NCBI RefSeq assembly: GCF_032191465.1
Contig: NZ_JAQOUE010000001.1
Location: 1,116,001 to 1,180,000, forward strand
Direction: 5' to 3'
From: Candidatus Nitronereus thalassa
Lineage (GTDB): Bacteria > Nitrospirota > Nitrospiria > Nitrospirales > UBA8639
Length of the DNA stretch: 64,000 nt
Positions 4,905 to 27,900 of this stretch are shown piece after piece. Under the pieces are notes generated by a model that saw only the letters and a list, made by a program, of their open reading frames with translations, ran no database searches and was not told the origin of the DNA. Both the position numbers and the translations under genes were made by a program. Numbering within the stretch: position 1 is the stretch's first letter; every line of letters begins with the position of its first letter.

Positions 4905-5534
4905 TTAATTGCCGATTCTTCGCCCAGGTAGTACTCGACGTTTATTCACTATCTCGGTGAGTTCTTCCTTATTAATTAATAAATGTGCCAATTGGCTGTT
5001 TTGTTCCATTTGAAACTCCGCCCCACCGTATCGGACAATGGGTTGTCCTTGTTCATTATTCACAAAAGCTAGCACATACACATCCGACTGTGGCCCCGTC
5101 CCTCGGACAAAACCAAAGGAAAAATTCTCTTCAAAACTGACGCGGAGTTCAGGGTCTCGCACATCCACCGCAATCCCCGGGGTCCCTCGATTCACGACAA
5201 TTTCATTCACATCCTTTCCGTCCTTCACGACCAATTTTCCCTTGGCAATTTCATACTTACCGGAAGTGTCTACATGACGAAGCTGAATAGGATGGGACAC
5301 ATAGAATTGCAACCGTTTCAGTTCGGGAGGCGTGAGATTATATTCCATTCTTAAGGAATGGGTAAAAGGAATTTTGTCAAAGGTGCTTCGAACTTGTGGA
5401 CGATTTTCACACCCCAAAAGTCCGAGAATTCCAAAAAGAACCATAAGAAAAACCACCCGACCCCTCATTTGTGTTTCCACCTTTTTCCGTCTTCCCTCAG
5501 GAAAACCCTGACAAATTGCTCGGAACATCCTCAC
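4905..5534 (-). CDS. Predicted lipoprotein of unknown function
   Basis: 209 residues from the first ATG. A hydrophobic segment ending in the lipobox LLGC (Cys about 42) predicts a lipid-anchored envelope protein. The mature part is mostly beta-type with no family I recognise (YNLTPPELKRLQFYVSHPIQL, in segments). Two starts are plausible: 5534 has a strong AAGGAGG site at 7 nt, whereas 5468 (MRGRVVFLM...) has AGGTGG at 8 nt and gives a normal-length signal peptide (Cys 20). The second fits lipoprotein architecture better. Confidence 0.75.
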   Translation of the reverse strand: MRMFRAICQGFPEGRRKKVETQMRGRVVFLMVLFGILGLLGCENRPQVRSTFDKIPFTHSLRMEYNLTPPELKRLQFYVSHPIQLRHVDTSGKYEIAKGKLVVKDGKDVNEIVVNRGTPGIAVDVRDPELRVSFEENFSFGFVRGTGPQSDVYVLAFVNNEQGQPIVRYGGAEFQMEQNSQLAHLLINKEELTEIVNKRRVLPGRRIGN

Positions 5535-6097
5535 CCTCCTTCACATTCTATTGAGTATTAGTTTTTTTAGAACATTCAAGGACATAACACAAGTCCATAG
5601 GCCACCTATTATCCACCTCAGGCAACACCCATGAACCTTAGACCATCAAGCCGACTTCCCCGTCACGGCCTGACTTATGATAAGGATCAGCCATTCAGAG
5701 TCCCAAGGCCTAGCATTGGCCGTCAATATTCCATATGGGGAGCAATCCATGTGCTAACCTCCAAGTTCATTCTGGATTATAAACAATGAACCTTTCAGAC
5801 TCACAAATTTTGGAACCATCGGCGGACCAAATCTTTACTTCCTGACCCTAAAGAAAGGTTATGAAGCCATACCTCCATAGAATTTTTTGGGACATTTTGT
5901 TCCAATCCTGGACAAAGTTCCCCATCAATGGAAGTTGATGAAATCCCACGCATTTCAGGTCTCTTTTCTCAACTCTGCTAATCCACATCGAACAATTTGC
6001 ACTTGGCTACTTGTTTCCTAAGAGTTTCCTAAGGAAAAATTTCATTGAATTTCTTAAGAAATTTGCAGTAAACAAAAAATGCAAAAGTACGTAAAAA
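5535..6097. other. Gene-free region with dyad symmetries upstream of a sigma-54 promoter
   Basis: I see no credible ORF with a ribosome-binding site in this stretch of more than 550 nt. It holds an RRGACA-type dyad at 5887 and two A/T-rich dyads close to the promoter at 6098: TTTCCTAAGGAAA near 6024 and the perfect 16-bp palindrome AATTTCTTAAGAAATT at 6048-6063. The layout is what a long activator-controlled upstream region would look like. Confidence 0.5.
5887..5905. promoter_or_regulatory. Putative activator site (UAS dyad), copy 1
   Basis: TTGGGACATTTTGTTCCAA. The core GGACA-TTT-TGTTC matches the RRGACA-N3-TGTCYY dyad seen upstream of the other -24/-12 promoters, with one mismatch in the right arm. 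It lies about 190 nt upstream of the promoter at 6098, within the usual range for an enhancer site of a sigma-54 activator. Confidence 0.45.
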
Positions 6098-6114
6098 TTG
6101 GTATATCTTTTGCA
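6098..6114 (+). promoter_or_regulatory. Putative sigma-54 promoter (-24/-12)
   Basis: TTGGTATATCTTTTGCA, with GG-N10-GC spacing and TTTGCA at -12. It lies about 95 nt upstream of the small gene at 6208, which has an AAAAGGAGGT ribosome site. Confidence 0.65.
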
Positions 6115-7583: not shown

Positions 7584-9077
7584 TCACTCATTTTCCAATG
7601 TAAGAAAAAGAGTCGCGCCGCCACGGCGAACCAGAAGCAACACATTTTCTCTGGGCCCGAGGTGTTTGGAGAGCGACTCAAAGTCCCTGAGAAATCTCAC
7701 TGGATTTCGATTAATCTCAATTAAGACATCCCCGATTTGTAATCCTCCACGCTCAGAAGGACTGTTAGGTGGCACGTCGCTGACCACTACGCCTTCATCC
7801 CCTTGACCTTGGCCAGGAGGCAAAGGTTCAACAATCACACCGTCCAAAAGGTGGTGGCCTTTGGCTTGGCGGGAAAAGCTTGGCGGTGCGATAAATCTGG
7901 GCAATTCGCCCATAGTCACGGACATTCCTAGCTCTCGACCATTTCGGAGAATTCCCATCTCCACCACGACGCCAGGAATCGTATCCGCGACCAACCCCCT
8001 CAATTGTTGTGGATTGATGACAGATTGCCCATTGAACTTTCGGATAATGTCTCCGCGTTCAATTTTGGCTCGCCCTGCGGGTCCTCCATCGTTCACATCT
8101 CCGAGCAACACGCCCTTGGCATCCGGCGCCTTAAATTGTTTGGCAAGTTCAGGGGTCATGGCTTGCATGGAAATACCCAGCCATCCCCGAACGACTTTCC
8201 CTTTCGTCATCAGTAAATGGGATACCTTTTTGGCCATTTGGCTCGGGATGGCAAAACCGATTCCCATGGACCCCCCGCTTTGGCTGAAAATGGCGGTATT
8301 AATACCGATGAGTTCGCCTTTTAAATTCACGAGCGCACCACCAGAATTTCCAGGGTTGATGGCGGCATCAGTTTGGATAAAGTCTTCGAAATCCACGATA
8401 CCCATATTGGCGCGACTCACAGCACTGATAATACCCATGGTCACCGTCTGATTCAGACCAAAGGGATTTCCAACCGCAACCACGATTTCACCAACTTGCA
8501 GAGTGGTCGAGTCCCCCCAAAGGAGAAAAGGCAGCCCCCCGGCTTGAATCTTTAAAACCGCAAGATCCGTTTTTGGATCAGTCCCCACAACCTTGGCCTT
8601 AAACCGTCGTTGGTCAGTCAGGAGAACCCGTATTTCATTCGCCCCTTCCACTACATGATTGTTCGTCAAAATATAACCATCCGCACTCATAATCACCCCG
8701 GAAGCCATCCCTTGTTCTCGCTGGTCCTGGGGAGTTTGCCCCGGCACACTGGGCTCTTGGTCAAAAAACTTACGAGAGTACGGCGGAGAATCAGGAGCTC
8801 CTTCGTTTTGAAAATTTCCAACGGTCATGACATTCACGACCGAGGCTTGGGTGAGTTTGGCAATCCGAACCAATTCCAGGCTGAGTAGAGAAACATCTCG
8901 TGAGGGGATCTTAACACTTTCCTTCTGGTTGCCAGTACCTGGCACCGGAATGGTGTCCTTCGCCAACACAGTGAGAGTCCTCCCTGACCCAGAAACTTCA
9001 TCCTGAGGTAGCCCCATTCCCCAACAGCTAACAAAGAAAACACCTGCCCATATGTTCAAGATTAATTTCCGATTCAT
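7584..9077 (-). CDS. Periplasmic serine protease of the Do/HtrA (DegP/DegQ) family
   Basis: 497 residues from the ATG at 9077, which begins a signal peptide (MNRKLILNIWAGVFFVSCWG). The trypsin-like triad is present: His141 in TNNHVVEG, Asp171 in KTDLAVLKI and Ser245 in NPGNSGGAL. Two PDZ domains follow (about 270-370 and 395-490). Such proteases degrade or refold damaged envelope proteins. A longer in-frame start at 9158 lacks a signal-like N-terminus. A DUF4398 lipoprotein and a zinc-ribbon gene lie just upstream on the same strand, and read-through from the sigma-54 promoter at 9821 would place this protease in the envelope-stress regulon. Confidence 0.93.
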   Translation of the reverse strand: MNRKLILNIWAGVFFVSCWGMGLPQDEVSGSGRTLTVLAKDTIPVPGTGNQKESVKIPSRDVSLLSLELVRIAKLTQASVVNVMTVGNFQNEGAPDSPPYSRKFFDQEPSVPGQTPQDQREQGMASGVIMSADGYILTNNHVVEGANEIRVLLTDQRRFKAKVVGTDPKTDLAVLKIQAGGLPFLLWGDSTTLQVGEIVVAVGNPFGLNQTVTMGIISAVSRANMGIVDFEDFIQTDAAINPGNSGGALVNLKGELIGINTAIFSQSGGSMGIGFAIPSQMAKKVSHLLMTKGKVVRGWLGISMQAMTPELAKQFKAPDAKGVLLGDVNDGGPAGRAKIERGDIIRKFNGQSVINPQQLRGLVADTIPGVVVEMGILRNGRELGMSVTMGELPRFIAPPSFSRQAKGHHLLDGVIVEPLPPGQGQGDEGVVVSDVPPNSPSERGGLQIGDVLIEINRNPVRFLRDFESLSKHLGPRENVLLLVRRGGATLFLTLENE

Positions 9078-9201
9078 ACCGCCTCTCATCTCTTTACGTC
9101 TATACGCTTCGTTCGTTGGCCATGTAGAAAAGTTGTCCGTTCTCTGGAATCTTGTCACGTTTCACAGTCATTGGCCATTGATTTATAGAAAGGTGGGAAG
9201 G

Positions 9202-9540
9202 TTAATTTTGCCGAAGTCGTTGATGTTGAATTGCTTCCTCCATCGCACGATGGGCGTCGAGAGTTGCCAATACAAGAAGATCTATCGTCGTGGAATAATC
9301 CCGCTCCCAACTCCACCGGGCATTTTGCGCATGCCACTCATGAGTCGCAGCACTGAAGGCCGCCATGGCCCGGACATAGGTCTCCTGGGAAAACTGTGGG
9401 GCATTTTCCTCCACAGCTCGTTTTAGCGCTTGACGAGCTTCCTCGAATTCTGTCACCGGAGTCCCCGAACAACCGGTGAGGACCACCGCCATCAACAAGC
9501 TCATCAGCCCCAGACGAAGCCATTGAAAGATGGTCAACAC
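9202..9540 (-). CDS. DUF4398-type lipoprotein
   Basis: 112 residues. The signal peptide ends in the lipobox LTGC (Cys 24). The mature part is helical with DUF4398 features (EFEEARQALKRAVEENAPQF, then ETYVRAMAAFSAA). A second, longer member is encoded at 21999-22619. These proteins are thought to sit on the outer or inner membrane facing the periplasm; function unknown. The start overlaps the 3' end of the zinc-ribbon gene by 7 nt, so the two are co-translated. Confidence 0.85.
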   Translation of the reverse strand: MLTIFQWLRLGLMSLLMAVVLTGCSGTPVTEFEEARQALKRAVEENAPQFSQETYVRAMAAFSAATHEWHAQNARWSWERDYSTTIDLLVLATLDAHRAMEEAIQHQRLRQN

Positions 9541-9749
9541 GACGATCCACCAAGGGCAATCACTTCAAGACGTCGAGGCTGCCGACCCACTTTCTTCGGT
9601 AGCTGCTTCAACTGACGATGTCGGAGTAATACCGAGTCCGTCACTTCACCACAATTCACACACCGATATCCTTGCGCTCTTGAAGATTGGCCATCCATAT
9701 CCGACAGCAGTTCTTCAACCATGAATCCATTACAACGATGGCATATCAT
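9534..9749 (-). CDS. Small zinc-ribbon protein (CxxC...CxxC)
   Basis: 71 residues: MICHRCNGFMVEE at the N-terminus and YRCVNCGEV at about 29-37 form a four-cysteine zinc ribbon, followed by a basic tail. The layout closely matches the protein at 23821-24057 (CERC...CVNC). It could bind nucleic acid or a protein partner; there is no direct evidence. It is first in a two-gene unit with the DUF4398 lipoprotein, about 60 nt downstream of the expected start point of the sigma-54 promoter at 9821. Confidence 0.82.
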   Translation of the reverse strand: MICHRCNGFMVEELLSDMDGQSSRAQGYRCVNCGEVTDSVLLRHRQLKQLPKKVGRQPRRLEVIALGGSSC

Positions 9750-9820: not shown

Positions 9821-9837
9821 AGCAATTGAGATGCCAA
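9821..9837 (-). promoter_or_regulatory. Putative sigma-54 promoter (-24/-12)
   Basis: Minus strand TTGGCATCTCAATTGCT, with TGGCA and TTGC at GG-N10-GC spacing. It drives the zinc-ribbon/DUF4398 pair and perhaps htrA. A dyad site lies about 115 nt upstream, at 9952. Confidence 0.68.
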
Positions 9838-9951: not shown

Positions 9952-9966
9952 GGAACAAGTTGTCCT
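9952..9966. promoter_or_regulatory. Putative activator site (UAS dyad), copy 2
   Basis: GGAACA-AGT-TGTCCT. It differs from the RRGACA-N3-TGTCYY consensus at one base in the left arm. It lies in the 343-nt gap between the regulator gene and the zinc-ribbon gene; that gap shows no ORF of its own. Confidence 0.45.
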
Positions 9967-10092: not shown

Positions 10093-11445
10093 TTATCGTA
10101 ATCCGTATTCCTTAAGTTTTCGTTGGAGAGTTTTTCGGTGGATCCCAAGAATCTCGGCCGCTTGGGCTTCATCCCCTTTATAGGCCTCCAGCACTTTTAA
10201 AATCTGTTCCCGCTCAAGCTGATCCAAGGTTTTCCACCCGGTATCCTTACCAACCAGCGGGGGAGCTTGGGAAGCAATTGCCGGAGGAAGATCTTCTGGC
10301 ACAATGGTCGTGTGAGGGGTCAAGACAATGGCCCGTTCGATCGTATGTTCCAATTCCCGCACATTACCTGGCCAATCATATTGCTGAAGCAGAACCATCG
10401 CCTTGGGTGAGATGTCCGTGACCTGCTTCGTATTCGTGACTCCATATTTTTGAAGAAAATAGCGGACTAGCAAAGGAATATCATCAGTGCGCTCCCGCAA
10501 TGAGGGCAACTGTATCGTTACTACATTCAACCGATAATATAAATCCTCTCGAAATTTTCCACTCTTCACGAGTTTGAATAAATCCTTATTGGTCGCGGCC
10601 ACGACTCGAACATTTACCCCAATAGAATCCTGACCTCCAACCCGACGAATTTCTCGTTCCTGAAGCACCCGGAGAAGTTTACTCTGAAGGGCTGGGGTAA
10701 TATCCCCGATTTCATCCAAAAAACAGGTCCCTCCATGGGCCATTTCCAATAAGCCCTTTTTGTTCCCGATGGCTCCGGTAAAGGCACCTTTTTCGTGTCC
10801 AAATAATTCGCTTTCCAGAAGCGTTTCGGCCAGAGTTCCACAGTCCACCGCCACAAAGGGACCATCATGTCGTTGGCTATTGGAATGTATGGCGCGAGCA
10901 ATCAATTCCTTCCCGGTGCCACTTTCGCCTTGAATCAAGACCGTACTTTCACTCGGAGCCACGCGAGCCACGAGCTTATATACGGCAACCATTTCTGAAC
11001 TCTTTCCCTGAAGTTGATCTATCCCTAAGGTGGCCTGTACTTGTTGCTTCAAAGAACGATTTTCTTGAAGAATTTTTTTATGGTCCAAGGCCCGCTTCAC
11101 CAACAATCGGACTTCATCCAGCACAAAGGGTTTGCTGATATAATCAAATGCTCCGGATTTAATGCCTTCTACCGCCGTCGTCATGCTGCCATACGCCGTT
11201 AACAAGATTACCTGAGTATCCGGATGCCGCGATCGGATATTTCCCAATAATTCAATCCCATCCATAATCGGCATTTGAATATCACTCAACACCAGATCCA
11301 TCACCTGGCCTTCTAGTTGATCCAAGGCCTGTTTCCCATCCTGCGCCGTCTGTACGACATACCCTTCCTTTTCCATGATTTCTTGAAGAAGGTTTCTCGT
11401 TTCTGCTTCATCATCTACAACTAGGATCGACGTTTGTGGGGTCAT
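10093..11445 (-). CDS. NtrC-type sigma-54-dependent response regulator
   Basis: 450 residues from the ATG at 11445, six bases after GAGGAG. The receiver domain (1-120) has the acid pair Asp11-Asp12, phosphoacceptor Asp55 (LSDIQMP) and Lys105. The AAA+ domain (about 145-385) has Walker A GESGTGKE (173-180), the GAFTGA loop (220-225) that contacts sigma-54, and Walker B CFLDEIG. A Fis-type helix-turn-helix ends the protein (AAEILGIHRKTLQRKLKEYG). It follows its kinase with a short gap. It is the obvious activator for the -24/-12 promoters around it. It resembles the ZraR/AtoC group, but the signal is unknown. Confidence 0.95.
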   Translation of the reverse strand: MTPQTSILVVDDEAETRNLLQEIMEKEGYVVQTAQDGKQALDQLEGQVMDLVLSDIQMPIMDGIELLGNIRSRHPDTQVILLTAYGSMTTAVEGIKSGAFDYISKPFVLDEVRLLVKRALDHKKILQENRSLKQQVQATLGIDQLQGKSSEMVAVYKLVARVAPSESTVLIQGESGTGKELIARAIHSNSQRHDGPFVAVDCGTLAETLLESELFGHEKGAFTGAIGNKKGLLEMAHGGTCFLDEIGDITPALQSKLLRVLQEREIRRVGGQDSIGVNVRVVAATNKDLFKLVKSGKFREDLYYRLNVVTIQLPSLRERTDDIPLLVRYFLQKYGVTNTKQVTDISPKAMVLLQQYDWPGNVRELEHTIERAIVLTPHTTIVPEDLPPAIASQAPPLVGKDTGWKTLDQLEREQILKVLEAYKGDEAQAAEILGIHRKTLQRKLKEYGLR

Positions 11446-11458
11446 CATGATCTCCTCG

Positions 11459-13054
11459 TCAGACCTGCAGAGCAATGACAAATGAGGTGCCGGTGCCCGC
11501 TTCACTTTTAACAGAAAGCGTACCCCCATGCAGCGTCACAATTTCATTCGCAATCGCAAGCCCTAACCCGGTCCCTTTACCCATCCCTTTTGTCGTAAAA
11601 AATGGGTCAAATATCTTAGATTGAAGTTCTTGAGAAATCCCGGGTCCAGTATCGGTGACTTCAATTTTGACCTGAGGTTTGTTTGTGGATGAATTGGAGG
11701 AGTTATCGAGAGAAACGCGAAGGGTCAATCGTCCCCCTTGCGGCATGACATCAATAGCATTATCGATGAGGTTTCCCAGGACTTCTTGCAATTGAGCAGA
11801 ATCGGCCTGAATGGTGCTCACGGATGGATCACATTCGGTGGTCAGCACAATATGATGTTCATCGCATAACGGCCGAAAAAAAGTTTCAATGTGTTCTAAA
11901 AAAACTCGAAGTGAAATGGCTTCCCTATTCAGAATCGGTGGCCGTGCCACATTTAACAAGCTTTGAATGACCTTGCCTAAACGATCGGTTTGCTTCAGCA
12001 CCGTATCCACTCGATTGCGAATTTTTTCCGGCAACTCTGGGGTTTCCTGAAGGAGTTGTAAATGACCGGAAATTGCCGTTAAGGGTGTCCCGATTTTATG
12101 AGCGATGGTGGCTACCAATTGCCCAAGGACCGCTAACCGTTGATGATGAACCACCTCCCGACGAGCAGCCGAAAGCTGCTCATTCATTTGAGTCAATGAC
12201 TCATTGTTCCTCAATAGTTCGGCGGTGGCGTGATCGACCCGATGCTGCAACTCATCTCGAGATTGAGCCAAGGCCTGCGTCAGTCGGTGATTTTCCTCTA
12301 CCACCGTTCGGATATGATCGGCCATCGCGTTGAAACTCTTGGCGATCGCGCCAATTTCATCGTCGGCATGCACCGGAACCTGAGCCTTCCATTCCTGCTG
12401 ACGCAAGGAGGTAATACCAGACTCTATCTTTTCCAGGGGACGCAATACCCAAAGATATAAAAACCCGTTCATGCCGATGACTAAAACCACCCCTAATCCA
12501 ATTCGTATGATTTGCGACCACTGAAAGAGAAACTTCGTCAGAGCATCAAACTGCCCAGTCCAAAATTCCGCATAGGCAACACCTCGAATTTCTCCCTGAA
12601 TCATAATAGGCAGAGCCACTTTAATAATGTGTTCACGTCGAACGTCTTGGGGAGTACTCACAGGTTGGCCTCGCTTCACCGCTTCCTCGACTTCATGGGG
12701 AATAGTCTGAGAAAAACGACTACTCTCCCCAACCTGGGTGAGCAGCAAGAGTTGGGCTGACTGGGATTTTACGATTTGATACACACTGATATGGAGCAGA
12801 TCGGGAGTGCGTTCCATTAATTCCCGGACAATCTTTTCTCTCGCTTTTTCCGCACGAAATTGAGCCATAGTTTGAAGCCGGGCATCGACCTGCCGGAGTA
12901 AGGACACGGTTTTTAATTGAATGTTTTCTTTCGCTAACTCCGTAACATACGCCCGCTCAACAACCTCTGCCAAAATCAGAGCTAAGGCCACCATTCCAAT
13001 AACCATCACACTGGCTTTTGCCGGAAGCGAATAAGGCCAATATCGAAACGACAT
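11459..13054 (-). CDS. Membrane sensor histidine kinase, partner of the NtrC-type regulator
   Basis: 531 residues. TM1 is about 14-33, a periplasmic domain of roughly 145 residues spans about 34-180, and TM2 is about 183-203. HAMP (about 204-255) and a coiled coil come next, then the phosphoacceptor His319 in AHKIGTPLTAI and an HATPase domain with N (NLIDNAID), G1 (DTGPGIS) and G2 (GTGLGLAI) boxes. HKIGTPL replaces the commoner HEIRNPL. The small periplasmic domain suits envelope sensing. The zinc-finger gene at 13129-13299 lies 75 nt upstream, so all three genes may be transcribed from the sigma-54 promoter at 13401. Confidence 0.94.
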   Translation of the reverse strand: MSFRYWPYSLPAKASVMVIGMVALALILAEVVERAYVTELAKENIQLKTVSLLRQVDARLQTMAQFRAEKAREKIVRELMERTPDLLHISVYQIVKSQSAQLLLLTQVGESSRFSQTIPHEVEEAVKRGQPVSTPQDVRREHIIKVALPIMIQGEIRGVAYAEFWTGQFDALTKFLFQWSQIIRIGLGVVLVIGMNGFLYLWVLRPLEKIESGITSLRQQEWKAQVPVHADDEIGAIAKSFNAMADHIRTVVEENHRLTQALAQSRDELQHRVDHATAELLRNNESLTQMNEQLSAARREVVHHQRLAVLGQLVATIAHKIGTPLTAISGHLQLLQETPELPEKIRNRVDTVLKQTDRLGKVIQSLLNVARPPILNREAISLRVFLEHIETFFRPLCDEHHIVLTTECDPSVSTIQADSAQLQEVLGNLIDNAIDVMPQGGRLTLRVSLDNSSNSSTNKPQVKIEVTDTGPGISQELQSKIFDPFFTTKGMGKGTGLGLAIANEIVTLHGGTLSVKSEAGTGTSFVIALQV

Positions 13055-13128: not shown

Positions 13129-13299
13129 TTACGCGGCCTTTGGCAACCTTTGGAGCTCACCGTCTGCCATGGCACTAAACAAGCATGTGCCCTGGTAAAC
13201 TAACCGTTGATAGCACCAAAGACAGACTTCTTGTTGGGTGACCAACTCATAGACCGTCGTTGAAGAATGCCTTCCACACCATTCACATTGATTTATCAT
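13129..13299 (-). CDS. Small zinc-finger protein ahead of the two-component operon
   Basis: 56 residues beginning MINQCEWCGRHSSTTVYELV, with a second cysteine pair CLWC at about 28-31, so it can form a four-Cys zinc site. The tail is short and basic. A GGAGG ribosome site stands 7 nt before the ATG. I see no family name. It is the third CxxC...CxxC mini-protein in this block. Its place at the head of the kinase/regulator transcript, under a -24/-12 promoter, suggests it modulates the same system. Confidence 0.72.
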   Translation of the reverse strand: MINQCEWCGRHSSTTVYELVTQQEVCLWCYQRLVYQGTCLFSAMADGELQRLPKAA

Positions 13300-13400
13300 G
13301 AAATATCCTCCAGGTCTAAATCTCTTTGTTCAACCCACTGCAAGATAGATTTCCTAACAACTGACTTTAACAAAGAATCTCGCAACTTACTTTTTAAAGA

Positions 13401-13417
13401 AGCAAAGACAATGCCAA
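13401..13417 (-). promoter_or_regulatory. Putative sigma-54 promoter (-24/-12) of the two-component operon
   Basis: Minus strand TTGGCATTGTCTTTGCT, an excellent match (TGGCA, TTTGC, N10). It points at the zinc-finger gene, kinase and regulator. The dyad at 13543 is about 126 nt upstream. Confidence 0.7.
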
Positions 13418-13542
13418 ATCATTATCTCCGAATAATCCAAACGTCTGAAATCCGAAACAATGAAGGCCACCAACCCTAGGTTCGCGGTGTATTAACGAAT
13501 AGATCGCAGAATATAAAAAAGGGCATCTATCGATGAAGTTTC

Positions 13543-13557
13543 GGGACAATTTGTCTT
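13543..13557. promoter_or_regulatory. Putative activator site (UAS dyad), copy 3, between divergent promoters
   Basis: GGGACA-ATT-TGTCTT, a full match to RRGACA-N3-TGTCYY. It is about 126 nt from the leftward promoter at 13401 and about 107 nt from the rightward promoter at 13664, so it could serve both. The 488-nt gap 13300-13787 shows no other convincing gene. Confidence 0.55.
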
Positions 13558-13663
13558 GGCAACGGACAGAATATCTTTCAAACCCGAATTGCATTTTCAT
13601 TCGGCGAGGACCAAGAATTGGATTTCCATTGTATTTTTTAAAAAAAAGTCTAACCAAAGCGCC

Positions 13664-13680
13664 CTGGTATGGTTTTTGCT
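13664..13680 (+). promoter_or_regulatory. Putative sigma-54 promoter (-24/-12)
   Basis: CTGGTATGGTTTTTGCT, with GG-N10-GC spacing. It lies about 108 nt upstream of the secreted lysine-rich protein gene at 13788. Confidence 0.62.
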
Positions 13681-13787
13681 TTATTTTTCTTCTTATTCGT
13701 AAGACATCTCGCTCCTAATCATTCATTAGTCGCGATGGATGTCTGCTAAAAAGTCATACCAAGCCAACCTTTACAAAGGAGCATTTC

Positions 13788-14030
13788 ATGTCTTCTCAGC
13801 CCACAACGATTGTCGCATTGTTTACCGCCCTCACCTTCACCTTAGGAACACCTGTGTTTGCCGAACCGGAAGTTTCACAACCAGCCGCTCCTCCTGCAGA
13901 ACAGCACATGGGCGCGGATCATGCTGCAGCTCCAGCCAAATCGGAAGCCAAGCACAAAAAAATGGCGAAAAAAAAGCGCTCAGGGAAAAAGGCCAAAAAG
14001 GAAAATAAGAAATCTGGCGACGAATCCTAA
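13788..14030 (+). CDS. Small secreted lysine-rich protein
   Basis: 80 residues. A Sec signal peptide (MSSQPTTIVALFTALTFTLG, then TPVFA) has a likely cleavage after VFA at about residue 24. The mature chain begins with a Pro/Ala/Glu stretch containing two histidines and ends in a very basic tail (KHKKMAKKKRSGKKAKKENK). It may bind wall polymers, LPS or nucleic acid outside the inner membrane; this is inference from charge only. An AAAGGAGC site precedes the ATG, and a strong hairpin terminates the transcript. Confidence 0.75.
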   Translation: MSSQPTTIVALFTALTFTLGTPVFAEPEVSQPAAPPAEQHMGADHAAAPAKSEAKHKKMAKKKRSGKKAKKENKKSGDES

Positions 14031-14045
14031 TCCGCCGCAACCTAT

Positions 14046-14081
14046 CAAGGGCACGTCTCGCAATAATGAGACGTGCCCTTG
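14046..14081 (+). terminator. Strong hairpin, probable terminator or attenuator
   Basis: A perfect 14-bp stem (CAAGGGCACGTCTC / GAGACGTGCCCTTG) with an 8-nt loop, followed by an A/T-rich stretch (ATTTATCTTT). It lies 15 nt after the secreted-protein gene and 35 nt before the receiver gene, so it may separate or attenuate the two. Confidence 0.75.
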
Positions 14082-14116
14082 ATCATTTATCTTTATTAAC
14101 CAGAACAAATTTCAAA

Positions 14117-14518
14117 ATGGCCAACACGCCGCCCCCTTTCCCGTCAATACTAATCGTTGACGACATCCCCTACATTCGCCTTTATTTCCGTGTCGCTCTT
14201 GAATCATTTGGACATCAATGTGAAGAAGCGAGCCACGGGCTTGACGCCATAGGAAAATTGCACAACCGCCATTACGATGTAGTCCTCACCGACGTTCAAA
14301 TGCCCCACCTTGATGGATTCGAATTAGCCAAATGTCTTAAGGAAGACCCGTCTCTCGGGAGTCCAATCGTCCTCATGATGACAGCAAGTAATACTGACTT
14401 GTTAGCGCCACTGGCCCAAGCAGCGGGAGTAAGAAAAATTTTTGCCAAACCGTGTCACCCTGTGGTTATTCACCAAGAAATTATGGACATTCGACAAAGG
14501 TTTCCCACTGCGGCCTAA
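14117..14518 (+). CDS. Stand-alone receiver-domain protein 1
   Basis: 133 residues that are all receiver: acid pair in ILIVDDIP, phosphoacceptor Asp in LTDVQMPHLDG, Thr in LMMTAS and Lys in FAKPCHP, so it should be phosphorylatable. There is no output domain. I chose the ATG at 14117; an upstream in-frame ATG at 14066 lies inside the terminator hairpin. It is a tandem paralogue of the next gene, and both end in RFPxAA. It could relay or buffer phosphate for the nearby kinase. Confidence 0.85.
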   Translation: MANTPPPFPSILIVDDIPYIRLYFRVALESFGHQCEEASHGLDAIGKLHNRHYDVVLTDVQMPHLDGFELAKCLKEDPSLGSPIVLMMTASNTDLLAPLAQAAGVRKIFAKPCHPVVIHQEIMDIRQRFPTAA

Positions 14519-14598
14519 GATTTCGCTAAAGTTAAATGGGGTTCACGATTCTTGTTACATTTAATCCCCACCTCCCCAAAGACACTTTTTCCACGATT

Positions 14599-14613
14599 TA
14601 AACAAAATGTCTC
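14599..14613. promoter_or_regulatory. Putative activator site (UAS dyad), copy 4
   Basis: TAAACA-AAA-TGTCTC. The right arm is perfect; the left arm has A for G and T at the first position. It lies about 72 nt upstream of the promoter at 14685. Confidence 0.35.
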
Positions 14614-14684: not shown

Positions 14685-14701
14685 TTGGTACACCTTTTGC
14701 T
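14685..14701 (+). promoter_or_regulatory. Putative sigma-54 promoter (-24/-12)
   Basis: TTGGTACACCTTTTGCT. It is almost identical in the -12 half to the promoter at 6098. Transcription would start near 14711, just upstream of the AAAGGAG ribosome site of the second receiver gene. Confidence 0.65.
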
Positions 14702-14729
14702 TCACTAATATATGCGAAAGGAGCAAATG

Positions 14730-15251
14730 ATGAATTCAAAATTTTCCACGGACACACGACCTACCGGAGTGAATAAAGATCGCAGCATGTCGCCCTCACC
14801 ATGCATTTATCAACCTCCTCTCCCTCATGCCACTCAGCCTACATTTCATTCCTTGTCTTTGGGTTGTGCTTTGCCGTCCATATTGATCGTTGACGACGCA
14901 GCCGAATTTCGGCGCACCCTGCGTGAAGGGTTAGTTATCTTTGGCTATGACTGCCAAGAAGCCGAGTGTGGAACCGACGCCCTACGCTATTTGAAAAACA
15001 GAAAATTCGATGTCGTGCTGACTGACCTGGTCATGCCGTTTCTTGATGGGTTGGGATTAGCCCAACACATCATGGAAGACCGTTCCTACGGTCACCCCTT
15101 GGTCATCTTGATGACATCGGGCCACAGTGATATGGTCAAATCGTTGGCTAAAACGTTTGGCATTAAGAATATCCTGGATAAACCATGCAAGGCGTCCGAA
15201 ATCAACCGGATCATTCGAGAAGAACCCCTCCGATTCCCCAAGGCAGCTTAA
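14730..15251 (+). CDS. Stand-alone receiver-domain protein 2
   Basis: 173 residues from the second of two adjacent ATGs; AAAGGAG is 6 nt upstream, while the ATG at 14712 lies before that site. About 50 disordered N-terminal residues precede a receiver with ILIVDDAAE, phosphoacceptor Asp in LTDLVMPFLDG, LMTSG and Lys in LDKPCKA. There is no output domain. It is a close paralogue of the 14117 protein with an added N-terminus. The sigma-54 promoter at 14685 puts it in the local regulon. Confidence 0.87.
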   Translation: MNSKFSTDTRPTGVNKDRSMSPSPCIYQPPLPHATQPTFHSLSLGCALPSILIVDDAAEFRRTLREGLVIFGYDCQEAECGTDALRYLKNRKFDVVLTDLVMPFLDGLGLAQHIMEDRSYGHPLVILMTSGHSDMVKSLAKTFGIKNILDKPCKASEINRIIREEPLRFPKAA

Positions 15252-15306
15252 CAATTCAGACCCACGTTTTGGGACGAATCGAACCCTACTCCAACCGCTT
15301 TCTCCC

Positions 15307-16335
15307 ATGACTCAGTCCTTTCAAAAGATTGCCGTAATTACTGGTGACCACCACCTACCGGATACTACCAAGCGCAATGCCCAATACAATGAAGAAGATC
15401 GATCCACGCATGTGGCCATGATGACCGCTTTTCAAAGTTGGCCGGATTATGATTTTGAATTCATTGACGATCATAGGGCACTCCTCAAACAAATTCGCAG
15501 TCACCCCCCGGATTTGGTCGTCAACTTTTGCGACACGGGATTTCGGAATCAAGCCTCTCAAGAGCTAAATATCCCTGCCTACCTCGAAATCTTAGGAATT
15601 CCCTATACAGGCGCGCCCCCTTCCGCGATGGTGATCTGTTATGACAAGGCCATTGTGCGGCTGGTGGCACAGTCCCATGGTGTCTCAGTTCCCCAAGAAC
15701 AATTTTTAGGCACCAACCTGCTCACACAATCCTTTCCACTCGTCTTCCCAGCCTTGATAAAACCAAACACGGCCGATGGAAGTGTCGGAATCACCAAGGA
15801 CTCTGTGGTGCGATCTTGGCAAGAAGCCAACACCTACGTGGCCTGGCTGCACGAGACTCTTCCCGGTTGCGACATCCTCATCCAAGAATATTTACCAGGA
15901 CCGGAATACGGAATTGGGGTCATCGGAAATATCGAGACGGGTTTGCGAATATTCCCGACATTGGAAGTCGACTTTTCTCGTTTACCGTCAGGCTTGAATC
16001 CTATTCTTTCTTTTGAATCAAAAGCCTATCCCGACTCCCCGTATTGGACTGATATTCAATTCAAAAAAGCCATATTGCCGACAGAGGTGGAAGCCAAAAT
16101 GCAGGGATGGGTGCGTACTTTATTCAAGCGATTCGGGTTGCGAGATTATGCAAGATTTGATTTTCGTGTTGGAGCAGATGGCGAGCCCAAATTGATGGAA
16201 GTCAATCCGAACCCGGCCTGGGCGAATGATGGAAAACTGGCATTTATGGCTGGCTTTGCGGAAATGGAATATCGAGATATGCTTCAGGACATCCTTCAAT
16301 CCGCAATCAAGCGTTTGTCGAAGCGGTCAAAGTAG
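15307..16335 (+). CDS. ATP-grasp ligase related to D-alanine-D-alanine ligase
   Basis: 342 residues from ATG 15307; the longer in-frame ORF overlaps the receiver gene. The ATP-grasp signatures are an N-lobe glycine region ending in IKPNTADGSVGI, ILIQEYLPGPEYGIGVIG, and the metal site RFDFRVGADGEPKLMEVNPNP (in segments, residues about 280-305). Housekeeping Ddl enzymes share this shape, but the N-terminus (DLVVNFCDTGFRNQASQ) is unusual. This may be a paralogue that joins other amino acids. It converges with the CocE-type gene with a 9-nt overlap of 3' ends. Confidence 0.82.
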   Translation: MTQSFQKIAVITGDHHLPDTTKRNAQYNEEDRSTHVAMMTAFQSWPDYDFEFIDDHRALLKQIRSHPPDLVVNFCDTGFRNQASQELNIPAYLEILGIPYTGAPPSAMVICYDKAIVRLVAQSHGVSVPQEQFLGTNLLTQSFPLVFPALIKPNTADGSVGITKDSVVRSWQEANTYVAWLHETLPGCDILIQEYLPGPEYGIGVIGNIETGLRIFPTLEVDFSRLPSGLNPILSFESKAYPDSPYWTDIQFKKAILPTEVEAKMQGWVRTLFKRFGLRDYARFDFRVGADGEPKLMEVNPNPAWANDGKLAFMAGFAEMEYRDMLQDILQSAIKRLSKRSK

Positions 16336-21998: not shown

Positions 21999-22619
21999 TT
22001 ATGCTTTCGCTTTGCCAGTTTTTTGCAAAGCATGAGCCACCTCATCATGGACCCGAATAGCTAAGGATTCAATGGCCTGCGCCTTGGCTTTTGCACCAAG
22101 AAAGTCTTCGGCTACGAGAGCGCCATCAACTTCCACGAGCATGGATTCCGCCGTTTGCAAATCGCCATTTAAGGCTTGCAGATCCGCCTGTGAACCTTTT
22201 CCCATCGGGGCTTTGGCTAAAATAACTCGCGCTTCCTGGACACGAGATTTTGCATTCGTCATTGCAGATTGCGCTTCACTTTTTACTCGTTCTTTATTCG
22301 CCACGGCTTCCGTCTTGGCTCGAAGCGCCTCCTGATTCACTGCTTGCAACATTCCTTCCACGCTTTCATAGTTTCTCATGATCGCGAACTTGGAATCTTG
22401 AATGGCTAGCTCTTCTTGAGCCATTTGATAGGCGGTCTCGGCTTCACGAAAACTTTCCGGAGCATAATCCGGTGCTCCCGCTTGCCGGGCTTCCTTCAGC
22501 GCCATGTCCGCCGCATCAAGCGTGGTCATGGGTTTTTCCGCACACCCCAACATCAACATGCCGATTAGAATCGACAAAGTTCCCATACTGAGCACAGTGT
22601 TGCGTTTCACGAAAGTCAT
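21999..22619 (-). CDS. DUF4398-type lipoprotein, long form
   Basis: 206 residues from the ATG at 22619. The signal peptide ends in lipobox LMLGC (Cys 26). The mature chain is a long alpha-helical rod (EREA-type repeats such as EARQAGAPDYAPESFREAET) with the DUF4398 pattern shared with the 9202 gene. Start choice is uncertain: AGGAGG abuts the 22619 ATG, whereas an ATG at 22649 has AAGGA at 3 nt. It is immediately upstream of the two L,D-transpeptidases and is a plausible periplasmic scaffold or substrate for them. Confidence 0.82.
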   Translation of the reverse strand: MTFVKRNTVLSMGTLSILIGMLMLGCAEKPMTTLDAADMALKEARQAGAPDYAPESFREAETAYQMAQEELAIQDSKFAIMRNYESVEGMLQAVNQEALRAKTEAVANKERVKSEAQSAMTNAKSRVQEARVILAKAPMGKGSQADLQALNGDLQTAESMLVEVDGALVAEDFLGAKAKAQAIESLAIRVHDEVAHALQKTGKAKA

Positions 22620-23005: not shown

Positions 23006-23022
23006 AGCAAAAGATATGCCAC
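23006..23022 (-). promoter_or_regulatory. Putative sigma-54 promoter (-24/-12)
   Basis: Minus strand GTGGCATATCTTTTGCT: TGGCA and TTTGC with N10. It faces the 39-residue gene and the DUF4398/transpeptidase operon. Confidence 0.68.
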
Positions 23023-23093
23023 ACGACATCTTCCACAAGAAAAAGGAAAGGCTTGAATTTTTTTAATGATGTGATTGTTTTCAAATATCATTT

Positions 23094-23110
23094 GGACAGA
23101 ATTTCTGTCC
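23094..23110. promoter_or_regulatory. Dyad between divergent sigma-54 promoters (extended spacing)
   Basis: GGACAGAATTTCTGTCC, with perfect 8-bp arms round one central base. It contains the GGACA and TGTCC halves but with a 7-nt rather than 3-nt spacer. It may be a second site beside the better match at 23116. Confidence 0.45.
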
Positions 23111-23115
23111 CTACA

Positions 23116-23130
23116 AAGACAGATTGTCTT
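23116..23130. promoter_or_regulatory. Putative activator site (UAS dyad), copy 5
   Basis: AAGACA-GAT-TGTCTT, a perfect dyad matching RRGACA-N3-TGTCYY. It lies about 94 nt from the leftward promoter at 23006 and about 179 nt from the rightward one at 23309. The 400-nt gap 22950-23349 holds no other visible gene. Confidence 0.55.
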
Positions 23131-23308
23131 CGTCTATCCTTGACGATTTATCATTTTTCCTTAGTCGCCTTCCTCACCGTTCACTAGTCTCTCTCATTTG
23201 AACTATTTTGACTCCCAACTCCAGGCAAAAAGGACATAGATAACCGATGAAGAAATTTCATGGAGATAGATAGTGGCATACTCCCGATAACAGAAGAATC
23301 CAAATGAA

Positions 23309-23325
23309 TTGGCATATTCATTGCA
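23309..23325 (+). promoter_or_regulatory. Putative sigma-54 promoter (-24/-12)
   Basis: TTGGCATATTCATTGCA. Transcription should begin near 23336, only about 15 nt before the ATG at 23350, with GGAG in that short leader. Confidence 0.65.
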
Positions 23326-24671: not shown

Positions 24672-24688
24672 TGCAACTGTCATTCCAT
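24672..24688 (-). promoter_or_regulatory. Putative sigma-54 promoter (-24/-12)
   Basis: Minus strand ATGGAATGACAGTTGCA (TGG, TTGC, N10). It faces the 50-residue gene and the small lipoprotein. Confidence 0.58.
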
Positions 24689-24826
24689 TTTCAGAAAGAA
24701 TCCAAACGACCTGCGCGACGGGTTCAGACCAACTCCCAACACAGCATTTTTCAGGATTTCCTTGGTATTCGAGCTATTGGCCGAGGCAAGACGAATCGGG
24801 CTTATAATTGGAAGACTTCACAAGAT

Positions 24827-24841
24827 GAGACATTTTGTCTT
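24827..24841. promoter_or_regulatory. Putative activator site (UAS dyad), copy 6, between divergent promoters
   Basis: GAGACA-TTT-TGTCTT, matching RRGACA-N3-TGTCYY. It lies about 139 nt from the leftward promoter and about 93 nt from the rightward one upstream of ppc. The 453-nt gap 24619-25071 holds no other visible gene. Confidence 0.52.
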
Positions 24842-24933
24842 GCAAAAGAGCTATTTGTCCTTAAACTAACAACTCAATCATAAGAAAAGTTGAACTAGTG
24901 AAGGTAAAACCACTTCCCTGGTGGCCAGAAGAA

Positions 24934-24950
24934 ATGGAATATATTTTGCT
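24934..24950 (+). promoter_or_regulatory. Putative sigma-54 promoter (-24/-12) upstream of ppc
   Basis: ATGGAATATATTTTGCT, with the same TTTTGCT -12 half as the other sites. It is about 120 nt upstream of the PEP carboxylase ATG. A housekeeping gene under this control would be unexpected, so a sigma-70 promoter may also exist. Confidence 0.5.
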
Positions 24951-25071: not shown

Positions 25072-27900
25072 ATGGTCAATCTCCCTAATCCTGCACCCTA
25101 CCAACCATCCAGCGACAAGGCCTTGCGAGCTCGGGTCAAACTGTTTGGGCATATTCTTGGCGAAACACTACGTGACCACGCAGACCATCAGGTTTTTGCC
25201 ACTGTCGAGGCCTTGCGAAAAGGGTATATCCATTTGCAAACCAAACCGAATCCAACACGGCGGAGGCGGCTAAGGAAATTGGTAGAACACTTAGAGGAAC
25301 CAATTTTGGAGCAGGTGGTTCGAGCCTTTAACACTTACTTTAGTTTGGCCAATATTGCCGAGGAGTCGTTTAAGCACCATCAACGCCGCAAAAACAGTCA
25401 AGCAGGACTCCCACGTTGGGAGGGATCCTTTGACCATACCCTGTTGGCTTTTCAGGAAAGCGGTCATTCCCCCGAGGATCTCCAACAGCTACTTCACACC
25501 ATACAATATATTCCGGTATTCACGTCCCATCCCACGGAAACCAAACATCGAAATATTCTGGAAACACTTCAACGCATCTTTGTCATTAGCGAAGAACTCA
25601 ACAATTCCCAACTCAGTAAATATGAACGCGCTCAGGTCATCAACCAATTGCAAGCCTCCGTCCAGATCCTTTGGAAAACCGAAGAGGGTCGTGCTCGGAA
25701 GCCAAGCGTGGAAGATGAGATTCACAATGGATTGTACTTTTTTCGCACCACACTCTTTAAAGCCATTCCATTGGTATATCGACATTTTGAAGAATCCATC
25801 CAGCGGGTATATACCGGAGAAACGGAACAGCCCACTCTGCAGGTTCCAAGCTTTTTGCGATTTGGCTCGTGGATTGGAGGTGATCGCGATGGGAATCCGT
25901 ATGTCACCCCCTCCATAACGCGTCGAGCCATCCGTTTACAAGCCAGAACCGCTTTGAGGGAATACCTTAGACGGGCCAAAGAGTTAATTCAGGTTCTCAC
26001 CCACTCGGATAAATGGGTTACCTTGCATCCAGCATTTCTCGAGTCTCTCACCCATGACCAACCCGTGGCACAAAAGGCTTTTGCCCGAAATCTCCACCTC
26101 TTTCGTCATGAACCCTATTGTCGAAAATTGGCGATCATCCGCTATCGCTTACGGATGAATATTAGTCTGATCGAACACAGTCTCTCCGGCAATAAAGGAA
26201 AACCAGCGGACCATGCCTATCGGTCGGAAGCTGAATTGCTCGACGACTTGTATGTCATTCGCGATTCCCTGCATTCGCATGGGGACGGCAATATCGCCGA
26301 TGGTGAGCTGAAAGATCTTATTCGCCTGGTGGAAACCTTCGGAATGTATTTGGCCCATTTGGATGTACGTGAGGAATCATCTCGGCATACCAGTGCCGTG
26401 GAAGATATTCTCAGGGGCCTGGGTATCGCTTCAGCCTATCAATCCCTTCCCGAAGAGCAAAAACTGAAAGTCCTGAGCGATCAACTGACAGCAACCCAGA
26501 ATTCAACCTGGCCGGAATCACTGAGCGCCGAAACGCTTCGAATTCTTGAAGTCTTCACGGTGATGACCGAGATGGGACGAGAAGTAAGTCAGCACACCTT
26601 TGGTAGTTATGTGATTTCCATGACCCACCAGGCCAGCCATGTGCTGGAGGTGGTGTACTTAGCAAAACTGGCTGGTCTCATCAGTTACTCATCGACAGGG
26701 CAGTGGGCTTGTCGCATTCGGATCGTTCCATTATTCGAGACCATCGAGGATTTGGCACATTGTGAGGCCATCCTTCACACGTTGTTCAACCATTCCATCT
26801 ACCGTGAATTGCTTCGCTGTGCCAACAATTTCCAAGAAGTCATGTTGGGGTATTCCGATTCTTGTAAAGATGGCGGCATCCTGGCATCTGCCTGGGGATT
26901 ACATGATGCCCAACGGAAAATCATTTCCCTGGCAAAGTCTTTTGGAATCACGTGCCGCTTGTTTCATGGACGAGGAGGCACCGTGGGCCGTGGAGGCGGC
27001 CCCACCCACCAGGCCATTCTCGCCCAACCCGAAGGCACCGTGCATGGGCAAATCAAATTCACCGAGCAAGGCGAAGTGCTCTCGCACAAGTATAGTCACG
27101 TGGAAACAGCGGTGTATGAATTAACCATGGGGATTACGGGTCTACTTAAAGCCAGCTCCCATTTGATTAAAGGATTGTCTTATGACTGGAACCAAGCCCA
27201 TGACATAATGACAACACTGGCCAAGTCCAGCGAAAAAAGCTATCGGCAACTCACCGAACAAACCCCAGGGTTTTTTGACTATTTCTACGATGTGACGCCG
27301 GTTCGGCAACTTGGGCAATTGAACATCGGATCGCGTCCCACGCATCGCCAAACTAGTGAGTCATCCAAAGAATCCATTCGCGCCATTCCCTGGGTATTCG
27401 GGTGGGGACAAATTCGGCATACCTTACCAGCATGGTATGGTATCGGCTCGGCATTGGAAATTTGGCGATCTCATGATCCAGCTCGGCTGGGGTCACTTCG
27501 TGCCTTGTATCGCCAATGGCCATTTTTCCGGTCTTTGCTCAGCAATACGCAAATGGCATTAGCCAAAGCGGACATGAACATTGCTAGCGAATACGCCCAG
27601 CTATGTCGAAATTCCCAACAGGGCGCCATGATTTATTCGTTGGTCAAGGAAGAATACGAACGGACAGTCAAGCAAGTATTGGACATCATAGGGGCCGAGA
27701 CCCTTCTCCAAGAAGATTTGCCTTTGGCCCTTTCGATTTCACGTCGCAACCCCTATTTAGAGCCGTTGAATCATATTCAAGTCACTTTACTCCAACGACT
27801 TCGAACATCTCCGGAAAACGAAACACCACACGCTATCTGGCAATCGATTTTGCTTCGTAGTATCAATGCCATTGCCGCAGGTTTGCGGAATACAGGATAA
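25072..27900 (+). CDS. ppc: Phosphoenolpyruvate carboxylase
   Basis: 942 residues, full length for bacterial PEPC. It catalyses PEP + HCO3- to oxaloacetate + Pi, the anaplerotic feed into the TCA cycle, in the cytoplasm. The catalytic His is in VFTSHPTETKHRNIL (about 150), the PEP-site region in GGDRDGNPYVT (about 270), the essential glycine/arginine loop in FHGRGGTVGRGGGP (about 635), and the C-terminal allosteric end in AIAAGLRNTG. There is no recognisable ribosome site before the ATG. Upstream lies a putative sigma-54 promoter. Confidence 0.97.
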   Translation: MVNLPNPAPYQPSSDKALRARVKLFGHILGETLRDHADHQVFATVEALRKGYIHLQTKPNPTRRRRLRKLVEHLEEPILEQVVRAFNTYFSLANIAEESFKHHQRRKNSQAGLPRWEGSFDHTLLAFQESGHSPEDLQQLLHTIQYIPVFTSHPTETKHRNILETLQRIFVISEELNNSQLSKYERAQVINQLQASVQILWKTEEGRARKPSVEDEIHNGLYFFRTTLFKAIPLVYRHFEESIQRVYTGETEQPTLQVPSFLRFGSWIGGDRDGNPYVTPSITRRAIRLQARTALREYLRRAKELIQVLTHSDKWVTLHPAFLESLTHDQPVAQKAFARNLHLFRHEPYCRKLAIIRYRLRMNISLIEHSLSGNKGKPADHAYRSEAELLDDLYVIRDSLHSHGDGNIADGELKDLIRLVETFGMYLAHLDVREESSRHTSAVEDILRGLGIASAYQSLPEEQKLKVLSDQLTATQNSTWPESLSAETLRILEVFTVMTEMGREVSQHTFGSYVISMTHQASHVLEVVYLAKLAGLISYSSTGQWACRIRIVPLFETIEDLAHCEAILHTLFNHSIYRELLRCANNFQEVMLGYSDSCKDGGILASAWGLHDAQRKIISLAKSFGITCRLFHGRGGTVGRGGGPTHQAILAQPEGTVHGQIKFTEQGEVLSHKYSHVETAVYELTMGITGLLKASSHLIKGLSYDWNQAHDIMTTLAKSSEKSYRQLTEQTPGFFDYFYDVTPVRQLGQLNIGSRPTHRQTSESSKESIRAIPWVFGWGQIRHTLPAWYGIGSALEIWRSHDPARLGSLRALYRQWPFFRSLLSNTQMALAKADMNIASEYAQLCRNSQQGAMIYSLVKEEYERTVKQVLDIIGAETLLQEDLPLALSISRRNPYLEPLNHIQVTLLQRLRTSPENETPHAIWQSILLRSINAIAAGLRNTG

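Follow-up and report, generated by a model that had tools for sequence, protein, structure and literature searches.

The gap at 13300-13787, located between the leftward zinc-finger/kinase/regulator operon and the rightward gene for a Lys-rich protein, is, taken as a whole, very likely a shared bidirectional sigma-54 control region, through which the kinase-regulator operon would activate itself and which would form part of a local enhancer regulon. Self-activation through this shared divergent region, as proposed in a first-pass annotation, is well supported at the level of DNA sequence because the enhancer and the -24/-12 element also precede this operon in other Nitrospirales, the enhancer sites recur at a 19-21 bp spacing around regulator orthologs, and the recognition helix of the regulator is conserved in these orthologs. 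The reading of the gap as a control region held but was too narrow, as at least six enhancer/promoter units were found in the window (the whole 64-kb stretch of DNA analysed), and the gap appears to be one node of this regulon (Table 1).

Table 1. Candidate regulatory elements and genes of the window, ordered by position (UAS, candidate enhancer site).
Feature	Position	Strand	Basis or remark
UAS pair 5891/5911 and -24/-12 site 6099-6114, 5' of a 56-aa membrane-type protein	5891..6114	+	
DegP/HtrA protease	7584-9158	-	Pfam; TIGR02037 above cut-off
DUF4398-like lipoprotein	9202-9540	-	Pfam
Zinc-ribbon-like protein	9534-9749	-	Pfam
-24/-12 site TGGCATCTCAATTGCT of the zinc-ribbon/lipoprotein/HtrA genes (UAS 9954)	9821..9836	-	Consensus, strict match
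UAS, one clear copy, GGAACAAGTTGTCC context, beyond the end of the regulator gene	9954..9964	.	Pattern
NtrC-type response regulator with receiver, AAA+ (GAFTGA motif), and Fis-type HTH domains	10093..11445	-	Pfam
Membrane histidine kinase: HAMP, HisKA, HATPase; periplasmic sensor Cache/PDC-like by fold model	11459..13054	-	Pfam
56-aa CxxC-x17-CxxC zinc-finger-like protein, first gene of the operon	13129..13299	-	Shine-Dalgarno GGAGGA
Predicted -24/-12 sigma-54 promoter TGGCATTGTCTTTGCT of the zinc-finger/kinase/regulator operon	13416-13401	-	10/12 consensus, strict match
UAS copy 1, perfect 11-bp palindrome GACAATTTGTC	13545..13555	.	Pattern reading of the gap
UAS copy 2, degenerate GACAGAATATC	13565..13575	.	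Exactly 20 bp from copy 1
Predicted -24/-12 sigma-54 promoter TGGTATGGTTTTTGCT of the secreted Lys-rich gene	13665-13680	+	10/12 consensus, strict match
80-aa Lys-rich protein, signal-peptide-like N-terminus, predicted target of the right promoter	13788..14030	+	Open reading frame
Single-receiver (CheY-like) protein	14066..14518	+	Pfam Response_reg
Tandem UAS, next unit right of the gap	14581..14611	.	Copies 14581 and 14601, 20 bp apart
-24/-12 site TGGTACACCTTTTGCT	14686..14701	+	Consensus, strict match
Second CheY-like single-receiver protein	14712..15251	+	Pfam
Second divergent unit: -24/-12 at 23021(-) and 23310(+), UAS 23095/23099 and 23118 between	23006..23325		
Third divergent unit: -24/-12 at 24687(-) and weak 24935(+); UAS 24829/24849	24672..24950		

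The gene order described in the first-pass annotation was recovered, with the CxxC...CxxC protein, histidine kinase, and NtrC-type regulator on the left and the Lys-rich, signal-peptide-like protein on the right, and the sequence showed good Shine-Dalgarno motifs at both first genes flanking the gap. The promoters that it had placed at 13401 (leftward) and 13664 (rightward) correspond to two sites with 10 of the 12 consensus bases each, and its dyad at 13543 to the 11-bp palindrome; the degenerate second copy was absent from that description. Both promoter sites have the sequence characteristics of the sigma-54-dependent class, including the GG-N10-GC core spacing and the -24/-12 consensus, and the genome (4.01 Mb, two contigs) encodes one RpoN. 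The first palindrome lies 109 bp from the right promoter and 128 bp from the left one, and the two UAS sites together are placed approximately 90-130 bp from each promoter, a geometry such as that generally described for UAS distance and looping of sigma-54 activators (PMC4641369).

The strict promoter pattern TGGYAYN5TTGCW was detected 35 times in the 4.01-Mb genome versus 19 times in the reversed control, and seven of the 35 matches fall within 17.2 kb of the window around the gap, compared with 0.15 expected (Poisson, genome mean density). The palindrome core, GACANNNTGTC, occurs 50 times in the genome (21 in the control); seven of these occurrences are accompanied, at a distance of 30-350 bp, by an outward-facing -24/-12 site of at least 10/12, versus 2.7% of random positions (p ~3e-4), and most of the perfect sites found elsewhere in the genome, lacking a promoter, are probably due to chance. 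The candidate enhancer code is a tandem GGACA-N3-TGTCC, or one site accompanied by a degenerate copy, located 5' of sigma-54 promoters; at the clustered promoters of the window, the tandem palindromes are usually 19-23 bp apart. Far from the window, at G000 C1 668216-668369 (L059), a perfect tandem UAS with 19-bp spacing and TGGCACAAAGTTTGCG was also found 5' of a multi-pass membrane transporter-like protein.

The genes located behind UAS-linked promoters encode DegP/HtrA, DUF4398-like and other lipoproteins, two L,D-transpeptidases, zinc-ribbon proteins, CheY-like receivers, and small secreted or membrane proteins. At the second divergent unit, lipoprotein and L,D-transpeptidase genes lie on the left, and those for a secreted protein and a zinc ribbon on the right; this zinc ribbon is a paralog of the 9749-9534 protein. 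Next to the gap, the first CheY-like gene is probably co-transcribed with the Lys-rich gene (35-bp gap). The second CheY-like gene is followed by an ATP-grasp protein (15127-16335), related to D-alanine--D-alanine ligase but far under the curated cut-offs. At the third divergent unit, the weaker match 24935(+) (9/12), by UAS 24829, faces a PEP carboxylase gene (25072-27900), and a protein of 48-50 aa starting with M(E/D)TG(I/Y)P(G/A)F is encoded just past the UAS-linked promoter both at 24687(-) in the window and at 5112(-) in L102. The -24/-12-like matches at 22039, 22360, 45179, and 51975 were dropped, being apparently within coding sequence or without a UAS.

The regulator is intact and presents the domains of the NtrC family above cut-offs (PF00072; PF00158, Sigma54_activat; PF02954, HTH_8) together with GAFTGA, and in NCBIfam it is AtoC/ZraR-like, under the cut-offs. 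The core of the kinase is closest in the PDB to ZraS. Its periplasmic part (aa 36-182) was modelled as a Cache/PDC-like domain (pLDDT 80, pTM 0.76), with the extracellular domains of WalK and Cache chemoreceptors as nearest matches in the fold search; the fold class was taken from this separate sensor model only, the full-length model having a low pTM (0.37). The signal perceived is likely of the envelope or cell-wall type, as judged from the predicted targets, HtrA, lipoproteins, and transpeptidases. No Pfam or NCBIfam family match was obtained for the Lys-rich 80-aa protein.

The first-pass annotation suggested looking for the same arrangement in related genomes; tandem sites and a -24/-12 site are conserved 5' of the kinase operon in six genomes, and when these six control regions are aligned, conservation is found mainly in the tandem GACAA-TTGTC and in GG..TTGC. 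The zinc-finger gene of L100 and L101 is immediately preceded by the tandem palindromes and a AGGTATTC..TTTGCA promoter; HtrA and the kinase-regulator genes of L098 and L103 are divergently oriented, with one UAS pair between them and -24/-12 sites on both sides; and in L208, a UAS and a -24/-12 element are found immediately 5' of the kinase. Using a weight matrix built from the sites in the window and at one further locus of this genome, with the DNA of relatives held out, 37 tandem pairs (18-23 bp) were detected in 497 kb around regulator orthologs, versus 0, 0, and 0 in Markov-shuffled sequences and one pair in 837 kb from other phyla. The spacing was 19, 20, and 21 bp in 15, 16, and 5 of these pairs (36/37 within 19-21 bp); the relatives are Nitrospirales MAGs, some closely related to each other, so that not every pair is an independent event. 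Across 60 relatives, the pattern counts (76 vs 24 in the control) are too noisy to serve as a guide to regulator presence genome by genome. UAS-linked genes recur as well, including a Lys-rich small secreted-type protein in L172 and CheY-like proteins in L101, L102, L175, L176, L213, L215, and L218. In addition, UAS-linked sigma-54 promoters were repeatedly observed in Nitrospirales 5' of small YtxH-family proteins (Pfam PF12732), such as in L010 at 11304(-), L013, L014, L096, L101 at 5105(+), and L102 at 9635(+).

Diversity was also observed among the relatives. A UAS just past the regulator stop is common, many more distant Nitrospirales carry UAS pairs exclusively 3' of the regulator or lack them in the stretch, L015 and L016 have UAS pairs with no recognisable adjoining -24/-12 site, and in the L010-L014 group a YtxH-family gene follows the UAS promoter, which is situated 3-5 kb 5' of the kinase. 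Autoregulation as predicted from these elements is therefore restricted to part of the clade and not universal.

The zinc finger-kinase-regulator order is kept in L100, L101, and L102, with a regulator approximately 70% identical and zinc-finger orthologs bearing an invariant CExCG...C..C; these three lie outside the set of 396 phylum genomes in which no match to the zinc-finger protein was found at E<=1e-6. In the three, the gene stays first in the operon even though the kinase lacks the membrane sensor and has a cytosolic coiled start. The CxxC-CxxC protein might be a conserved signal partner of the kinase, making a three-component sigma-54 system in which this protein would sense metal or redox state and set kinase activity in a positive loop, although this seems rather unlikely. 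Kinase orthologs without the membrane sensor were located in L100 (934-1755), L101 (1776-2630), L102 (6406-7359), L098 (4138-5043), and L103 (7911-8795); their alignment with the window kinase is limited to its C-terminal half, a coiled stretch precedes HisKA, and the regulator is still 67-70% identical in L098 and L100-L103. Searching the relatives' contigs with the window kinase as query gave no matches, whereas a relative's kinase as query did.

From the observed DNA elements, gene families, spacing, and conservation, we infer that the regulator binds these sites and acts positively in response to envelope stress. The membrane kinase would sense an envelope-type signal and phosphorylate the NtrC-type regulator, whose dimers would bind the tandem GGACA-N3-TGTCC (13545 and 13565), two helical turns apart, and contact by looping the sigma-54 polymerase bound at each of the two -24/-12 sites. 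A single enhancer between divergent promoters can serve both. Leftward, this would drive transcription of the zinc-finger, kinase, and regulator genes, a positive autoregulation raising kinase and regulator levels upon induction; rightward, it would drive the Lys-rich and CheY-like genes, and the common enhancer code would also act on the nearby envelope genes for HtrA, lipoproteins, L,D-transpeptidases, and small proteins. A switch-like output, as the first-pass annotation expected, is conceivable but does not follow from positive feedback alone, which does not ensure bistability.

The cognate pairing of regulator and UAS is predicted from their co-location and co-conservation, in a genome with many sigma-54 activators (131 first-look candidates of the NtrC type). 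The tandem palindromes could accordingly be bound by a different, remotely encoded activator, with the kinase-regulator operon as a cascade target that is not self-activated. This is improbable, as UAS pairs cluster around orthologs of this same regulator across the order, and its recognition helix, LG(I/V)HRKT(L/I), is almost unchanged among those orthologs and not kept in more distant paralogs.

Still less probable is constitutive expression of the kinase and regulator from a sigma-70 promoter; in that case only the rightward and neighbouring promoters would be controlled, and the leftward -24/-12 site would do no more than add the zinc-finger protein. Any such loop requires a basal supply of regulator, and the leftward strand carries sigma-70-like matches at 13088-13060 (10/12) and 13449-13421 (9/12), but the number of such matches is near the shuffle expectation. 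The first-pass annotation had regarded a separate constitutive promoter directly before the kinase gene, together with no effect of the dyad on expression, as an argument against self-activation; the 10/12 match is in that place, but it overlaps the kinase ribosome-binding site (Shine-Dalgarno), with a predicted start at about the kinase ATG that leaves no leader, so that it is not clearly such a promoter and may be, at most, a basal promoter start. Moreover, a search between the zinc-finger gene and the kinase found no terminator, and in L208 and L098/L103 the -24/-12 site is directly 5' of the kinase, no zinc-finger gene being detected between them. Finally, that the divergent -24/-12 sites and the dyad are chance look-alikes in an AT-rich gap is hardly credible, for although single consensus matches are weak and the 64-kb window holds 13 sites of at least 10/12, several of them intragenic, this is contradicted by the clustering of strict matches, the co-occurrence with UAS, and the fixed-spacing conservation in relatives.

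Nitrite oxidisers of the Nitrospirales are difficult to cultivate and to manipulate, and to our knowledge little has been established on their stress regulation. The enhancer code (tandem GGACA-N3-TGTCC, 19-21 bp), together with its probable cognate regulator and the predicted target genes, amounts to a testable regulon. The relatives also show a turnover of the sensor domain (membrane Cache-type versus sensor-less kinases), whereas the DNA logic and the regulator are constant.

Several known systems resemble the one described here. The predicted targets, envelope proteins such as HtrA, lipoproteins, and L,D-transpeptidases, agree with the theme of sigma-54 control of the cell exterior in a cross-phylum survey (PMC3162934), the accessible part of which makes no mention of this regulon or its UAS; the set looks like a previously uncharacterised envelope-stress regulon of Nitrospirales. 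GlrR (QseF), also a sigma-54 response regulator, has enhancer sites TGTC-N10-GACA at glmY/glmZ (PMC4987338, table), and the tandem palindromes share these half-sites and also form TGTC-N9-GACA. However, the core unit here is GACA-N3-TGTC in tandem, and the regulator, with 372.5 of 763 bits, is not a GlrR equivalog. The best NCBIfam models were those of AtoS-AtoC (529 bits for the regulator and 255 bits for the kinase), but both proteins are under the equivalog cut-offs (714 and 646) and, unlike in AtoS-AtoC, no acetoacetate genes were found in the neighbourhood examined.

The closest parallel in control logic is ZraPSR of Escherichia coli and Salmonella, an NtrC-family pair with an envelope-stress role that is autoregulated from one intergenic region also driving a divergent secreted-protein gene. 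ZraR controls the divergent sigma-54 promoters of zraSR and zraP (PMC4987338), its binding at the zraP/zraSR spacer has been read as autoregulation, and in vitro selection described it as a conditional single-target regulator (PMC8249747). The gap has the same predicted architecture, with divergent sigma-54 promoters around one candidate regulator-binding region, and ZraS and ZraR are, respectively, the closest solved kinase core and among the closest solved regulators. Nevertheless, neither the regulator (462.7 bits vs a cut-off of 760) nor the kinase (164.3 vs 479) is a Zra equivalog, the divergent Lys-rich protein is not ZraP, the operon begins with an additional zinc-finger gene, and, in contrast to the single target of ZraR, several more UAS-promoter units lie within 20 kb. 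Judged by its sequence features, the system is ZraPSR-like in logic without being ZraPSR, a control logic already known from E. coli ZraSR.
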